From a virus: 29,891 nucleotides of DNA. Of this stretch, positions 12,031 through 29,891 are shown in pieces. The stretch is from positions 1-29,891 of the IMG/VR virus record IMGVR_UViG_3300006854_000308; one strand, 5' to 3'. Position 1 is the stretch's first letter. Every line of letters begins with the position of its first letter. The position numbers and the translations under genes are program-made. The notes below the pieces were generated by a model. That model was given only the letters and a program-made list of their open reading frames with translations. It was not told the DNA's origin and searched no databases.

Positions 12031-12086
12031 GGCACTTCCAAAACCACGGCGGGCGATGCTTGACGGTTTGCCGATGTCTTGAGAGT

Positions 12087-12153
12087 ATCGCAGCGACGTT
12101 CGACCGTTACGCCGAACGCCGCCGCTGAACAAAACAGTGAATCGACCACCGTT
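12087..12153 (+). ncRNA. Structured leader of HNH gene, copy A
   Basis: The 67 bases before the HNH start carry an outer helix CAGCG (12091-12095)/CGCTG (12123-12127) and an inner helix CGTTCG (12097-12102)/CGAACG (12113-12118). The flanks ATCGCAGC and GCCGCTGAACA are identical in the leader of the paralogous gene at 18483, where the inner helix has different bases but still pairs. Such compensatory change supports an RNA element. Its role is unknown. Confidence 0.5.
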
Positions 12154-12855
12154 ATGCCTGCCAAAATAAATCTCATCGGTCGGACTTTTGGAAGAGGATT
12201 CGTCTTCGCTGAAGCGCCACCGTGTATCCGCCCTGATGGTCAAACCAGAGGCAAGAGTTGGGTTCGGTGCGTCTGCGGAACCGAGTTCATTGCCTTCAAT
12301 GAAAATCTGAAGCGTGGTCATACAACGTCGTGTGGATGCTACCGAGACGAACGGCGCATTGAGTCTCACACAATACATGGTCACGCTAAGAAAGGAGCAA
12401 ACACCAGAACGTATAAATCATGGTGCAACATGATTGACCGATGTGAGAGACCGGAGAATCAAGCTTACCATAGATATGGCGGACGCGGAATTAAAGTCTG
12501 TCAGGAATGGCGTCAATCTTACGAAAGTTTCCTTGCATACAATGGCGAGTGCCCGCCAAGAATGCAGATAGATCGTTGGCCGAATAAAAACGGAGACTAC
12601 GAACCCGGAAATACGCGGTGGGCAACGCCAAAACAACAAAATCGGAATAGAAACAGCAACAAGATTCTTACCGTTCGTGGAATAACCGGATGTCTCGCAG
12701 AACTGTGCGAGCACTTCAACGTCCCGTATAGGCGAACGTCGCTAAGATTGTTTAAGAAATGGTCTGTGGAAGAGGCGTTTTTCGTTCCGCAAGCCACCAA
12801 TCAATTCACACGGAAACCGATCACGGAATATCAAGAGCAACGCCTGGGTCTTTGA
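12154..12855 (+). CDS. HNH-type homing endonuclease (YGGRG family), paralogue A
   Basis: 233 aa from ATG 12154 (MPAKINLIGRTFGRGF); the longer frame would start at TTG 12079 and cross the structured leader. Early Cys residues (RCVCGTEF, SCGCYRDE) may form a metal-binding finger. The core is TYKSWCNMIDRCERP, YHRYGGRGIKVCQEW, MQIDRWPNKNGDYEPGNTRW and ATPKQQNRNR, the well-known free-standing HNH/AP2-like phage endonuclease pattern. The C-terminus (KILTVRGITGCLAELCEHFN, VPYRR) is a helix-turn-helix-like DNA-binding module. It is 40-45% similar by eye to the enzyme at 18483. It lies just after terL, and its 3' end overlaps the convergent gene by 35 bases. It probably spreads by homing into nearby genomes. 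Confidence 0.85.
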   Translation: MPAKINLIGRTFGRGFVFAEAPPCIRPDGQTRGKSWVRCVCGTEFIAFNENLKRGHTTSCGCYRDERRIESHTIHGHAKKGANTRTYKSWCNMIDRCERPENQAYHRYGGRGIKVCQEWRQSYESFLAYNGECPPRMQIDRWPNKNGDYEPGNTRWATPKQQNRNRNSNKILTVRGITGCLAELCEHFNVPYRRTSLRLFKKWSVEEAFFVPQATNQFTRKPITEYQEQRLGL

Positions 12856-18482: not shown

Positions 18483-19127
18483 ATGCGCATTCGCAAGCTT
18501 ATCCCGCCAGGAACTCAATTTGCAAGATGGACCGTGCTCGGACCAGGACCGGATGGAACAAATCATCTCGGTCGCCCGATTCCAACAAGCCATGTTCGCT
18601 GTATCGATGGCAATGAGGCGGTTGTTCCAAATGGCCAGCTCCGAAGCGGCCACAGCCGATCGTGCGGCTGTTTGAGGCACGATCTAGCAATCATCCTGAA
18701 TACGACACACGGACACGCAGGCGCCAATCGGCACAGCAGGATTTATTCAGTGTGGGCTGGCATGATTCAAAGAACAACTGACCGCGCTTACAATCAATTC
18801 CAGGACTACGGCGGTCGTGGTGTCTCAGTCTGCGAGCGCTGGAGAACTTTCGACAATTTTCTTGAAGATATGGGGCCAGGCAAAATCGGATGGACGATTG
18901 AACGCTTCAACAATGATGGAAATTACGAGCTTGCCAACTGCCTTTGGGCAACGCGCGCCCACCAGGGAAGAAATAAACGCACCAATCGGATTCTCACAGT
19001 TCGCGGAATCACAGCCTGTCTGGTGGATTTGTGTGAGCGGTTCGGTGTTCCGTATTCGCGCATCAAGTACAGGCTCGACAAGGATTGGTCTCCAGAACGA
19101 GCGTTCTTCACTCCGTGTTTACGGTAA
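18483..19127 (+). CDS. HNH-type homing endonuclease (YGGRG family), paralogue B
   Basis: 214 aa, ATG 18483. Motifs parallel paralogue A: SRSCGCLRHD, RIYSVWAGMIQRTTDRAY, YGGRGVSVCERWRTFDNFLE, DGNYELANCLWATRAHQGRN, and C-terminal RILTVRGITACLVDLCERFG with VPYSRIKYRLDKDWSPE, a helix-turn-helix-like module. The catalytic-region Asp of paralogue A (QIDRW) is Glu here (WTIERFNND), a possible loss of activity. It runs against the flanking minus-strand tail genes, and its 3' end overlaps the convergent 167-aa gene by 20 bases, just as paralogue A overlaps its neighbour. Probably a mobile selfish gene. Confidence 0.85.
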   Translation: MRIRKLIPPGTQFARWTVLGPGPDGTNHLGRPIPTSHVRCIDGNEAVVPNGQLRSGHSRSCGCLRHDLAIILNTTHGHAGANRHSRIYSVWAGMIQRTTDRAYNQFQDYGGRGVSVCERWRTFDNFLEDMGPGKIGWTIERFNNDGNYELANCLWATRAHQGRNKRTNRILTVRGITACLVDLCERFGVPYSRIKYRLDKDWSPERAFFTPCLR

Positions 19128-21095: not shown

Positions 21096-21863
21096 TTGAA
21101 ATTCGCAGCCACCATAGGAGCCTACCAATTGGCCGATTTTGTTCAGCTGAACATACTCGCGCTCCGCCGGGTGTTCGGAGACGACCTCCCGATCTTGGTT
21201 TCCGATGATTTGAACCAGTATTCCGCTGACATTCGGGACGTTGCCGCTCGGTTTGACGTCTTCCACTACTGTAGCAGCACCCACAGAGGGCATTTTGCCG
21301 GTGATGTGAACCAAGCGTGCAACGCTCTGGCTTTCGCCAAGGCTCAGGGGGCCGACATTGCCCTAAAAGTCAGCCAACGCTTCATCATGTGCGACCCGGT
21401 TTGCAGGGAAATCCTCGAACGGTACTTCTCTGATCCAGAAGTTTGGATCGCTTTCCCTGGAAAGATCCACCCCGGCTCAATTAAGCGGGCCGAGTCTCGC
21501 TTTTTCTCCAATTTCAGCACGGTCACTGATTTTTTTGCCGTCAGGACGGACAAATTAAGCTCCGAGACAGTCAAAAACCTGTACGAGACGCGGGTGAAAG
21601 AGCAAAAAAACCGTTTCGACACACTCGCGGAGCCTCTGTGGGGATACATCGGCGACGTAACCTTGGCCGGGCACGCCATCCGTATGCCAGAATTCAGTTC
21701 CCACTACCCGGGCAGACCGCCGATCTACCTCAGGAAATGCCAGCAGGAGCCCGGCGATTACCAGGTATTCGCCCGGGAGAACGGGATGGAGGAATTCCTG
21801 CCGCTCCTGGTTGAATGGCGCCAGATGAGTACTACGTATCGTCCAGTGCCCCAATTCATTTGA
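21096..21863 (+). CDS. Glycosyltransferase-like protein (GT-A fold)
   Basis: 255 aa with TTG start at 21096; an in-frame stop at 21078 leaves no ATG option upstream. The N-terminus (MKFAATIGAYQLADFVQLNI, RRVFGDDLPILVSDDLNQYS) fits a GT-A nucleotide-sugar fold. SDD at residues 36-38 is near where such enzymes place acidic sugar-nucleotide ligands, and GDVNQACNALAFAKAQGADI followed by ALKVSQR matches the central helix-strand of GT2-like enzymes. It likely transfers a sugar. Possible substrates are host surface glycans (superinfection exclusion), phage DNA, or virion proteins. It stands alone on the plus strand next to the HNH pair, as an acquired cargo gene would. Confidence 0.6.
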   Translation: MKFAATIGAYQLADFVQLNILALRRVFGDDLPILVSDDLNQYSADIRDVAARFDVFHYCSSTHRGHFAGDVNQACNALAFAKAQGADIALKVSQRFIMCDPVCREILERYFSDPEVWIAFPGKIHPGSIKRAESRFFSNFSTVTDFFAVRTDKLSSETVKNLYETRVKEQKNRFDTLAEPLWGYIGDVTLAGHAIRMPEFSSHYPGRPPIYLRKCQQEPGDYQVFARENGMEEFLPLLVEWRQMSTTYRPVPQFI

Positions 21864-22704: not shown

Positions 22705-22967
22705 TTTCTGCGGCGAGTGGAACGCGTGGGAGATCCCGCGGCCGGTTCGATGGTTCTGACCGCATGTATCACGCCGCAGAAAATTTTTGTTGCCTTCGCC
22801 GCGGGGATTTTGCAGAATCGTGACGCTCTGACAAAGCACGTTCGCTGCGCCAGAGCTTGCATTTACGGTTTACCTATGCATTCTTAATTTGCGCTCGGTC
22901 CTGGGTTTCGGCTCAGGCCCTTGCAGCAACCCTCTTTTGCTCGAAGGGCGAACGAGGCCGAGCGCAA
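22705..22967 (+). ncRNA. Structured intergenic leader of the replication gene
   Basis: This 263-base gap is packed with helices. An 11-bp perfect helix TTTCTGCGGCG (22705-22715)/CGCCGCAGAAA (22772-22782) closes about 56 bases with two inner hairpins and is followed by ATTTTTG, like a terminator or junction. GCTCTG (22825-22830)/CAGAGC (22851-22856) follows. Then a 10-bp perfect helix TTGCGCTCGG (22889-22898)/CCGAGCGCAA (22958-22967) ends 16 bases before the initiator ATG. It is not a tRNA. It could regulate the initiator or act in replication. Confidence 0.55.
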
Positions 22968-22983
22968 TTCATTTCTTTGGTGC

Positions 22984-26631: not shown

Positions 26632-26819
26632 CGCAACTTTCTTCCCTGGTAAAAAAATGGAGAATCCAGGCTGATGCTCTGCAGGACCTGAAGAAAGATA
26701 AAGAGATCCAGACCATGATCTTACGCAACAGGCAAAACGCGGATGAGGTGGAGATTTTGGTCGGAAAAGTGGTGGGTGGACAACGCGCACTTGACGAACG
26801 CGAAGATGTGTGCGAATAG
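26589..26819 (+). CDS. Small coiled-coil protein
   Basis: 76 aa from ATG 26589. Strongly helical and charged: DDKKNDLLALVTQLSSLVKK, WRIQADALQDLKKDKEIQTM, ILRNRQNADEVEILVGKVVG. Likely a coiled coil. It overlaps the previous gene by 43 bases. It is the last gene before the structured region, ending six bases before the first helix at 26826. Confidence 0.55.
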   Translation: MHTDDKKNDLLALVTQLSSLVKKWRIQADALQDLKKDKEIQTMILRNRQNADEVEILVGKVVGGQRALDEREDVCE

Positions 26820-26825
26820 AAAATC

Positions 26826-28605
26826 ATGTTTGGTGCCATGACAGCTTTAACGCCGGGTGCCCAATCCTGTATGGCCAGGACGGCAACTTCACTTCCTGAA
26901 GACCAAACATCCCGGCGCCAGTTTCTGCGGGCCGAAGATCAAGGGTTATCTTTCAAACATCCCCTAGGTCACTCCTTGTCCGCAGTCCATTTCCATGCCT
27001 CAAGGATTTAAGCGCACTCTCTGGAAACCTCGCGCGCAGCCGCCGCTTACTTCGAGGCAACGCGCCCGCAAGAAAGCTTGGACTGCCTCGATCGCTTTCA
27101 ACGCCAAGCCGGGCAATTCTCACTTCATCATTTTCCCTGCCAGCAGAAATTCACACCAGGCAGGCGAGTCACATCGGGATGAGCGCACAGTAGCTCATGC
27201 AACGCCGTCCGAAAGCCAGCTCCGAGCAGGTCTGGCCGATGCCTCGTTAAAACGACACCCAGCACGACCAACATCGGAGAACAGTAAGGGAGTAGCATCC
27301 ACATCCGACGCCTCGCGCTGCACTGGAGCGGAATGGCTTAATCAGTCCTCGCCGCTTAATTGTCCGGCATGTGCCGGAGAACCGCGTCCCTGATACCTGA
27401 AGCTCTGCACAGGTGTCCCGGGTGGCCAAAGGTCGCCAGCGCCCGGTAAACGCGAATCACTCGCCCCGGGTGAACTCCGCCCGTGAAGCTCCTTGCACTT
27501 CCTCGCTCGCTTCATCAGATCTCCATTTTACATGGACCGATTGAACCTTGTCCAGAAGATTACCAGAGGAAGACTTGATGTGAAAATGAGGATGAGTCGC
27601 GCAAACACACCCCTATCCCGCGCAGCCATGAGCCTGGGGCACCCCGCTCCCCCGGCGGTGGTCAAATCCTGTTCCAGCGGTTTGCGCCATGTCAGAAAGC
27701 AAGGCCAGCGTGCAAAAGTCGTTCGCGCCGACTGGTTTGCACTGATATTGGAGGAAGGTTCCTCCCGCGTGATTGCGACTCCCAACACCAGCACTTTCTG
27801 TGGCGGTATCTAAGATTGGCAAGGCCGACGCGAGACTAAGCCGGAGTGAGGCGAACCCTCATCCGACAATCAGCCGCACCGATGGCGGCAGCGCACCTTC
27901 AGCCGTGGTGGAAACACGGCAGGCGACTCCCGAAGTAGCGACGGAGTTCTGTGGCTTACAGGTCACAGGGAAAAGCTGGCAGGCAGCGGGCACGTCATTG
28001 CCATTCGCTGGCATTGGCTGATTGAACGATGAGGCAGTAGCTGAACGAGTAGTTGCGGTGGGAACCGATAATCCCCGATAGTTGCGCGTGGTGCCTTGGG
28101 GCATCATGGAGCAACCGACCCCACCGCGAACAAGCCAGATTCAGGTCTGGAAGCTGGACACCCGCAAGCCTACGGAATGCCCGTAGATCACTTGCGGGAG
28201 GAATGCCCGGTGGAGAATGCCTCCCTTGTTTGACGCCTACGAACGGAGGGAACACACCATGAAGGTCCAGCGGTTGAGCCGTTGGGCGGACACCTAGCGG
28301 GTGTCGGGTGTGGGAAGCAGTCTCAAGGTGCTCAACACCTTCTTCGGCGGTAACAATAAGGCGGTACGTCCACGCCCTGTGTGTGGCGCGAATCCAGCGG
28401 ATGAGTCTTTCTCACTGAACTAACGCACGAACCAACCGGAGCACGAAGTAAAACAAACAGAGTCAATGGTGGCCAGTACGTGTGGCCATTACTCAATTCG
28501 CTTCTTGATTACTTGGAAGCAATTTCCTGGCGGAAGGTCCACGCCCAGTGCGCGGCCCGGCTTACCAGGTCACACTGGTTTAGTAGCTTCAGGGAGTTCC
28601 CAGTG
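26826..28605 (+). ncRNA. Candidate giant structured non-coding RNA region
   Basis: No convincing gene lies in this 1.8-kb stretch, but perfect helices are dense. It opens with a three-way junction: ATGTTTGGT (26826-26834)/ACCAAACAT (26902-26910), GCCAT/ATGGC and CAGGA/TCCTG. CTGCGG (26925-26930)/CCGCAG (26980-26985) follows. Others are ATGAGC/GCTCAT (27179-27198), TCCGGC-ATGT-GCCGGA (27363-27378), CCGGG/CCCGG (27418-27446), GGAGGA-AGGT-TCCTCC (27750-27765), GCCGTG/CACGGC (27902-27920), GCGGTGGG/CCCACCGC (28055-28127) enclosing two more helices, CCCGCAAG/CTTGCGGG enclosing CTACGG/CCGTAG (28161-28198), CCAGCGG/CCGTTGG (28267-28285), GACACC/GGTGTC (28289-28305), AAGGTG/CACCTT (28325-28341) and CACTGG/CCAGTG (28573-28605). 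It may be one RNA or two. GOLLD- or ROOL-like giant phage RNAs are the nearest known type, but no family signature was matched. The weak promoter-like TTGACG at 26791 is not claimed. Strand is assumed from the flanking genes. Confidence 0.55.
28361..28377 (+). repeat. 17-bp direct repeat, copy 1
   Basis: The 17-mer GCGGTACGTCCACGCCC occurs here inside the structured region and again at 28668-28684 inside the next gene. A 10-base subset (GTCCACGCCC) is also found at 28537-28546. Confidence 0.8.
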
Positions 28606-28615
28606 AATCGCGGGC

Positions 28616-29344
28616 ATGTCCCGCAATAACGTCCCAAAGCTCCAAGTTATGAAGAAGAACGAACAAAGCGGTACGTCCACGCCCACAGCTCAACCTGCAA
28701 AGGAAACTGCTGCCGTCGTGTACGAGTTCCCACGTGTCCAGGATGTTACACCGGAAGCTCCGGTGATGTTCGGGGACAGGAAGGAATCGTTGCAAGTGTC
28801 CGGCAATGAAAAGGTGGAAATTGATGCGTATTTCTTCGCGTCGAAAACCAACCTCAAGCTGAAGAACATCAAGACGGCTCTGAACGGTCTCAAGAAACAG
28901 GGGGTAAAACTCCCTGATGGGAAGGAGATCGGCCAGAAATGGTTCAATGATAACGTCCGCGACCCGTTTCACAAGGTGTTACGGTACGCAGCGCGTCATT
29001 CACTGAGCCACGGGGCGCCTGTGTCCCTGGCATTCACCAAGCGGTTGAACAAGGACACTGGTGTCATCACCACTACGGCAAAGCATGGTTTCGAGTTCAA
29101 GACGGCACCGACGAAACCGGAAGCGGTTGAAGCGGTGGCGGACAAAGCGGCTGACAAGGCTGCGAAGAAGGAATTGTCCCAGTCCAAGACACGGGCAAAG
29201 CGGCAGCAAGGGAAGAAAAACCTTCAGCCGGTGATTACCCCGGAAGCGGCGAATCGAATCGACGCCATGATTGCCGAAACGGAAGCGGCGAAAGCGGCTG
29301 CGGCTGCGGCTGCGGTGCCTGCGACGAACGGCGAAGCGAAGTAA
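28616..29344 (+). CDS. Basic Ala/Lys-rich hypothetical protein
   Basis: 242 aa from ATG 28616, the first start after an in-frame stop at 28604; ATG 28649 (MKKNEQSGTSTP) is a possible alternative. The middle (YEFPRVQDVTPEAPVMFGDR, VEIDAYFFASKTNLKLKNIK, WFNDNVRDPFHKVLRYAARH) is folded-looking. The C-terminal 80 residues are low complexity (EAVADKAADKAAKKELSQSK, AAAAAAAVPATNG) and highly basic, suggesting nucleic-acid binding. ATG 28616 lies inside a hairpin GCGGG/CCCGC (28610-28624), which may limit translation. An intrinsic terminator follows. Function unknown. Confidence 0.7.
   Translation: MSRNNVPKLQVMKKNEQSGTSTPTAQPAKETAAVVYEFPRVQDVTPEAPVMFGDRKESLQVSGNEKVEIDAYFFASKTNLKLKNIKTALNGLKKQGVKLPDGKEIGQKWFNDNVRDPFHKVLRYAARHSLSHGAPVSLAFTKRLNKDTGVITTTAKHGFEFKTAPTKPEAVEAVADKAADKAAKKELSQSKTRAKRQQGKKNLQPVITPEAANRIDAMIAETEAAKAAAAAAAVPATNGEAK
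28668..28684 (+). repeat. 17-bp direct repeat, copy 2
   Basis: Exact second copy of the 17-mer, 307 bases downstream, within codons 18-23 of the 28616 gene. It may be a protein-binding site, an RNA pairing element or a duplication scar. Confidence 0.8.
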
Positions 29345-29364
29345 TCCGAAGCGAAAACGAAAGG

Positions 29365-29395
29365 CCTCTGCTCCTAACGGGGCAGGGGTTTTTTT
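29365..29395 (+). terminator. Intrinsic terminator
   Basis: CCTCTGC (29365-29371) pairs with GCAGGGG (29382-29388, one G-U) and is followed by seven T. It lies 20 bases after the stop of the basic Ala/Lys-rich gene and ends that transcription unit. Confidence 0.9.
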
Positions 29396-29403
29396 GTTTC
29401 CCG

Positions 29404-29607
29404 CCAGCGACTTGAAACAACCTGGTCGTTGGCTGGATACAAACTTCAACTGCGGAAAGGAATCTGATTGACTAACGGTGTTAATCCACTAACCTTCGCG
29501 CATGGCTTTGAACGGCCAAGCAAGCGCGACCTCCTACAGTTACCGCCGTGGGCTTTGCCTGATTGCTCCCTGCAATCCGGTGCTTGCGCCCAGTTCAACG
29601 GCGGTAA
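29404..29607 (+). ncRNA. Structured leader of the last HNH gene
   Basis: Three hairpins fill the gap. H1 is CCAGCGAC (29404-29411)/GTCGTTGG (29425-29432). H2 is CGCGC-a-TGGC paired with GCCA-agcaa-GCGCG (29497-29528). H3 is TTACCGCCGT (29540-29549)/ACGGCGGTAA (29598-29607) enclosing GGGC/GCCC and GATTGC-tccct-GCAATC. H3 ends 15 bases before the HNH start, with the ribosome site AGGTGG between them. Confidence 0.5.
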
Positions 29608-29622
29608 TTGCAGGTGGTTAAA

Positions 29623-29891
29623 GTGGATCTACTCACCAAACTATTCAGCCGGGTTGACTGTTTCTCTAACCCGAATGGCTGCTGGCTGTGGACTGGCGGC
29701 ACTAATCACGATGGATACGGAGTCATGAGATTCGACGGAAGAAATGAGAGGGTTCATGTCGTTGCCTATGAATCTCTCCGTGGCGTAGTCCCAATCGGGC
29801 TTTGCGTTCTTCATGATTGCGACAGACCTAATTGCGTAAATCCAAATCACCTATTCATAGGAACCAGAGACGACAACAACAAGGACAGAGC
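29623..29891 (+). CDS. HNH homing endonuclease (HNH_3-type), 3' end missing
   Basis: GTG 29623 is preceded at five bases by AGGTGG, which makes this start much better than TTG 29608 or GTG 29614 in the same frame. The first 89 residues show the HNH_3 pattern: NPNGCWLWTGGTNHDGYG, RFDGRNERVHVVAYESLRGV, CVLHDCDRPNCVNPNHLFIG and TRDDNNKDR, with the catalytic His and the Cys-x4-Cys metal pair. It is close to the enzyme at 22001 (GCWVWTGGKNEHGYG; CDNPPCVRPDHLFIGTARDN). The right edge cuts off the expected C-terminal HTH. Confidence 0.85.
   Translation, partial: MDLLTKLFSRVDCFSNPNGCWLWTGGTNHDGYGVMRFDGRNERVHVVAYESLRGVVPIGLCVLHDCDRPNCVNPNHLFIGTRDDNNKDR

Follow-up and report, generated by a model that had tools for sequence, protein, structure and literature searches.

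The window analyzed here, a stretch of 29,891 bases, is a fragment of an uncultured tailed phage that encodes a large terminase, a primase-helicase and a replication-initiation gene. Its capsid protein has no match among 50,697 annotated phages, and its terminase gives weak matches to three Streptococcus phages in the annotated phages searched. A sequence-only reading had pointed to a gene-free gap between two clusters of coding sequence and proposed that dense helices across 26826-28605 form a structured RNA of up to 1.8 kb. The gap holds up, and no long ORF lies in it. Of the proposed RNA, ~0.8 kb (27857-28648) is supported, including the dense helices in the 3′ part, but the remaining 1.0 kb (26826-27856) carries no structure signal and no helix excess over shuffled sequences. 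The features of the locus are collected in Table 1.

Table 1. Features of the structured element and its surroundings (window coordinates; L001 and L033 are the corresponding loci in two related phages)
Feature	Coordinates	Strand	Evidence or remarks
Structured RNA, supported core, ~0.8 kb	27857..28648	+	Covariation among window, L001 and L033
Possible 5′ extension	27520..27856	+	Conserved blocks 27543-27562, 27593-27661, 27727-27845; no structure excess
Part of originally proposed region without structure support	26826..27519	+	One block (26916-26995) common to L033
Long-range helix (27857-27863/28028-28034) enclosing branched domain	27857..28034	+	CCTCATC/GATGAGG, changed to CGTGTGT/ACACACG in L001
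Hairpins inside that domain	27947-27956/27961-27970; 27999-28003/28009-28013	+	
Core stem-loop P1-P2-P3 (8-bp P1, 5-bp P2, P3 with UUGG loop)	28053..28129	+	R1 match; 0/500 shuffles
P7-closed junction	28253..28312	+	P7 28253-28258/28307-28312; P8 28266-28272/28280-28286; P9 28290-28295/28299-28304
Hairpin with inner stem P10 (28370-28375/28381-28386)	28363..28394	+	CCACGC/GTGTGG, CCATGC/GCGTGG, ACTGGC/GCCAGT
Hairpin P11	28460..28494	+	AATGG/CCATT; ACTGG/CCAGT in L033
Closing helix P12	28504..28654	+	28512-28517/28641-28646 plus outer CTTC/GAAG 28504-28507/28651-28654; flanks gene X start codon
P13, P14, enclosed by P12	28573-28578/28600-28605; 28610-28614/28620-28624	+	
Gene X, 231-aa orphan protein	28649..29344	+	Directly 3′ of the RNA in all three phages
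Intrinsic terminator 3′ of gene X	29365..29395	+	Terminator-like sites at matching positions in L001 (6746) and L033 (3663)

Two relatives carry the element. One (G002, 74 kb; locus L001) is close, with ~80% DNA identity to the window in shared structural genes; the other (G008, 77 kb; locus L033) is more distant and was found via its major capsid protein, which is 81% identical. DNA-pattern scans of viral contigs returned L001, an identical duplicate fragment of it (L004, left out of all counts) and a site in an enterobacterial-type phage (L013), which was rejected as a chance match in coding sequence. The element has no match by BLAST in annotated phages and plasmids, and none was found in scans of genome contigs or in other capsid-protein relatives, all of which are fragments. 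The comparisons below thus draw on three independent sequences, two of them ~80% identical over much of the phage genome.

Elsewhere in the window, stand-alone genes are repeated at 12079-12855, 18483-19127 and 29608-29889. The first two are similar in sequence, and in each of the two relatives both have their match at a single locus; the last encodes an HNH endonuclease (Pfam). Separately from the RNA, a stretch around the start of the replication-initiation gene (22851-22970) is 73% conserved with L001 536-655.

The protein encoded by gene X is 84-85% identical to its L001 counterpart and 35% identical to that of L033. No Pfam, PHROG or PDB family was found for it, and a structure model (pLDDT 42) was too poor for a structure search. 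The genes upstream of the element differ: those of the window are a helicase and small genes of its own, those of L001 an unrelated helicase and different small genes, and in L033 two small ORFs separate the element from a homologue of window gene 21096-21863 just before it. Since the RNA and gene X occur together in all three phages despite these differing upstream genes, they behave as one module. None of the three phages showed a terminator between the RNA and gene X. A 17-base direct repeat, GCGGTACGTCCACGCCC, is present in the window at 28361-28377 (in the RNA) and 28668-28684 (in the 5′ coding end of gene X), with a variant at 28530-28546. It occurs likewise in the RNA and gene X of L001, at 5776 and 6050, and its core, ACGTCCACGCC, is found in L033 in gene X only.

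To assess structure, we folded single sequences and compared their energies with those of shuffled controls. An excess was seen only at ~28000-28300 (z −1.9 to −3.5). Folding energy was also low at 28700-29600, within and after gene X (z down to −3.9), with no excess covariation, and probably reflects composition or repeats. Consensus folding of the window with L001, relative to shuffled columns, gave stronger signals: z was −5.9 at 27945-28145 and −7.3 at 28045-28245, the latter with 14 compensatory pairs versus 5.4 in shuffles, a value reached by 0/100. In windows further along, z was −3.3 and −3.0, and at 28433-28625 it was −3.4, with six compensatory pairs versus 1.1 (0/100 shuffles). The coding sequence of gene X, taken as a control, showed low energies and compensatory pairs without excess. 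A structure-aware aligner of the Sankoff type, written for this analysis, agreed: z lay between −1.8 and 1.3 in the windows before 27897 and was 2.4, 6.7, 2.9 and 1.4 in those from 27897 onward, all approximate as the null sets comprised 16-24 shuffles. Its alignment of 27840-28651 with L001 contains 180 pairs, 57 of which are changed on both sides.

The more distant phage extends these results. A covariance model of 28053-28135 (R1), built from the window and L001 only, finds L033 2357-2430 with an E value of 3.7e-7. This is the sole match in the 77-kb genome, and it falls at the syntenic site before gene X. In a three-way alignment of P1-P3, pairing is kept in 95.7% of cells, and both partners differ in 11 of the 23 pairs; 0/500 shuffles reached this, and the signal is lost when the partners are slid. 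One caveat here is that the structure itself was used to fit this alignment, to the advantage of its counts. The P7/P9 junction was scored on a plain MAFFT alignment of the three phages, and 7/12 of its pairs are changed on both sides (0/500 shuffles). Aligned separately with the window and with L001, L033 recovers P1, P2, P3, P7, P8, P10, P11, P12 and P13, with z values of 4.3 and 3.4 for the core and 2.4 and 1.7 for the 3′ part (16 shuffles each). Covariation among homologous phage regions, which the sequence-only reading had named as the check on its proposal, is thus present among the three phages.

Individual helices illustrate the pattern. The 8-bp helix described earlier as nested over two others is P1 of the core, GCGGTGGG/CCCACCGC (28055-28062/28122-28129), which becomes CCCGTGAA/TTCACGGG in L001 and CGGTTGG/CTAACCG in L033. 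In the long-range helix that opens the element, 5/7 pairs differ on both sides between the window and L001. P7 reads CACACC/GGTGTG, CAAGCC/GGCTTG and CAAGTC/GACTTG in the window, L001 and L033, respectively, and P13 reads CACTGG/CCAGTG, CGCTGG/CCAGCG and GGGTTG/CAACCC. For P12, ACTTGGA/TCCAAGT is shared by the window and L001, with CTGACTT/AAGTCAG in L033. P11 lies in the most conserved 50 bases of the element (96% identity to L001). A possible pseudoknot, 27598-27604/28082-28088, fits all three sequences but competes with P2, and we make no claim for it.

Homologues might instead have shared a reading frame, the outcome that the sequence-only reading had set against an RNA. Over 27850-28648, stops interrupt all six frames in each of the three phages, and 57/61 alignment gaps are not multiples of three and hence break the frame. 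Paired columns are less conserved than unpaired ones (65% versus 72%); greater conservation of unpaired bases is the usual sign of a constrained fold. Judged from these sequence features, 27857-28648 is not coding. Strand comparisons bear on a further explanation, namely that the element is structured DNA, a site of replication, packaging or recombination conserved through DNA strand folding or protein binding. The element does adjoin replication genes in the window, and the last 300 bases show no plus-strand preference, folding at least as well on the minus strand (z 1.5 plus versus 2.9 minus). The core, however, favours the plus strand (z 7.7 versus 2.3, aligner relative to shuffled controls) and retains G-U pairs, 20 on the plus strand compared to 5 on the other. 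In addition, origin repeats or cruciforms would not show the long-range, multi-branched helices that are numerous here, and the element of G008 is not beside a homologue of the window primase-helicase. A DNA site is, we believe, a very unlikely explanation.

The 5′ 1.0 kb presents a different picture. Neither folding nor either alignment method detected structure in 26826-27856, and the signal starts at ~27850; accordingly, the helix excess over shuffled sequence that was at issue holds for the 3′ part and fails upstream of this point. Single-sequence folding energies at 26800-28000 (z +0.8 to −1.5) are the same as those of the surrounding coding DNA, and two-sequence consensus folding gave no signal in windows starting at 27480-27867. 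A view of the helices as chance pairings in a decaying, gene-poor stretch is correct for 26826-27856, where helix excess is absent. For 27857-28648 it is already refuted by covariation that 0/100 and 0/500 shuffles reached, and its probability as an account of the element is negligible.

Sequence conservation in the 5′ region is confined to blocks. Those within 27520-27856 are 72-95% identical to L001, and one (27593-27661) is also present in L033; other blocks are shared with L033 by the window (26916-26995) and by L001 (4538-4721). These blocks mark the region as old and mosaic, and folding does not follow from them. One possibility is that the RNA itself extends into this region as a variable 5′ part; another is a promoter plus gene remnants. 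The block at 26916-26995 is 79% identical to L033 1045-1124 and keeps a reading frame (R-FLRAED-GLS...VHF), so a small gene or a noncoding site is possible there. A 182-aa ORF that covers the 5′ part in L001 is unmatched in the other phages, and the ORF spanning the block in common with L033 is frame-shifted in that phage; we therefore do not take the 5′ part to be a single conserved gene. A weak match to the nematode sRNA ceN72 at 26923-26986 (E 0.026) was rejected, as its hairpin fits but does not covary with L033. On the minus strand, a promoter-like site (TGGACA, 18 bases, TAAAAT or TACGAT) occurs at the same place in the window (27554-27525) and L001 (4879-4850), directed away from the RNA. 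No conserved plus-strand promoter for the RNA was found.

The boundaries of the element can be revised in light of these data. Its right-hand end had been put about ten bases before the next start codon, a placement that needs correction. The ATG at 28616 sits in the loop of a covarying hairpin (GCGGG/CCCGC changing to GGGAG/CTCCC), and the start of gene X on which the alignment of all three phages agrees is 28649, within AGTTATGAA. P12 pairs bases flanking this AUG in each of the three phages. The 5′ end is uncertain, with a start perhaps near 27520. We conclude with high confidence that a conserved structured RNA is encoded at 27857-28648 and that it falls outside the described families.

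How might such an RNA work? Because the only terminator follows gene X and P12 spans the AUG, the RNA is probably the first part of the gene X transcript, which would run through the gene to the terminator. On balance, we favour a reading in which this plus-strand RNA of ~0.8 kb acts as a large folded RNA, with the co-transcribed gene X protein as its probable partner. By analogy with the large ornate phage RNAs, the RNA would most likely have a function in its own right, and the protein made from the same transcript would serve it as OapA serves OLE. With the last helix, P12, reaching just to the start codon of gene X, RNA folding and gene X translation are probably coupled.

That same helix invites a second interpretation, that of a very long 5′ leader controlling only gene X translation in cis, whose terminal helix hides the start codon until refolding or binding. 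The pairing that flanks the AUG in each of the phages, constant synteny and the lack of a terminator between RNA and gene are all consistent with a leader. Its size argues otherwise, as ~0.8 kb of branched structure far exceeds that of the cis-regulators known to us, and covariation is strongest 500 bases upstream of the start codon. We consider the leader possible but doubtful; given the size, the branching and the distance of the strongest covariation from the start codon, an RNA with its own role is preferred. A bolder version of that preferred reading would posit a new class of RNP, made of an RNA and the protein from its own transcript's 3′ end, with RNA folding gating translation and a full RNA of ~1.8 kb, longer than known ornate RNAs, whose 5′ half evolves fast. 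This we regard as unlikely.

Might the element belong to a family already described? No Rfam 15 model, including those of group I/II introns and HEARO, matched any of the three phages at gathering score, and permissive searches (E 5 and E 2; window and G008 element) returned chance-level matches only. The models of GOLLD (RF02032), ROOL (RF03087) and OLE (RF01071) gave nothing at E 10, an uncalibrated negative as the control genomes held no true members. No tRNA genes were found in the window or in the whole records of both relatives. A divergent member of a known large family (GOLLD, ROOL, OLE, group I/II intron or HEARO) could still have been missed by these models, and the similar size and phage setting would suit it, as would the fact that GOLLD likewise has a conserved 3′ part and a variable 5′ part (PMC12286853). 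However, against the absence of gathering-score matches in three phages, and with empty GOLLD, ROOL and OLE searches whose controls were uninformative, we judge this highly improbable. The kinship with GOLLD or ROOL suggested by the sequence-only reading is not borne out, as far as Rfam models tell; its other suggestion, an RNA class unlike known families, agrees with the Rfam 15 negatives and the three-phage covariation. Within the known kind of large structured phage RNA, the element is best placed as a new family, separate from GOLLD, ROOL and OLE.

To our knowledge, very few large structured RNAs of bacteria or phages have been described, and GOLLD, ROOL and OLE are without a settled biochemical function. 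An unrelated phage class, the fourth, whose protein-coding neighbour is constant, would supply a candidate protein partner, a handle missing for the cage-forming phage RNAs. The source lineage is uncultured, and the annotated phages searched include no close relative of it, which suggests that more such RNAs have gone unseen.

Comparison with known systems places the element apart from each. GOLLD, which forms an RNA-only multimeric cage, bears a general resemblance to it only: both are phage-encoded and ~0.8 kb, with a conserved 3′ part and a variable 5′ part. ROOL is likewise a large branched phage RNA, and we know of no protein partner for it. GOLLD and ROOL are usually found near tRNAs (PMC12286853). 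For GOLLD that setting in tRNA islands is frequent, though not universal; the element described here, in contrast, has no tRNA island around it and is tied to a protein gene instead. Structured 5′ leaders, such as riboswitches and phage regulatory leaders, share with it a helix at the start codon of the downstream gene, but the phage RNA is several times longer, and no known leader family matches. OLE resides in Bacillota chromosomes rather than phages, and its neighbour is a membrane protein, whereas gene X has no Pfam family and is a candidate partner only. Nonetheless, the OLE RNA gene directly adjoins the gene of its partner protein OapA (PMC11332333), and here, too, a large branched RNA lies directly beside a protein gene.
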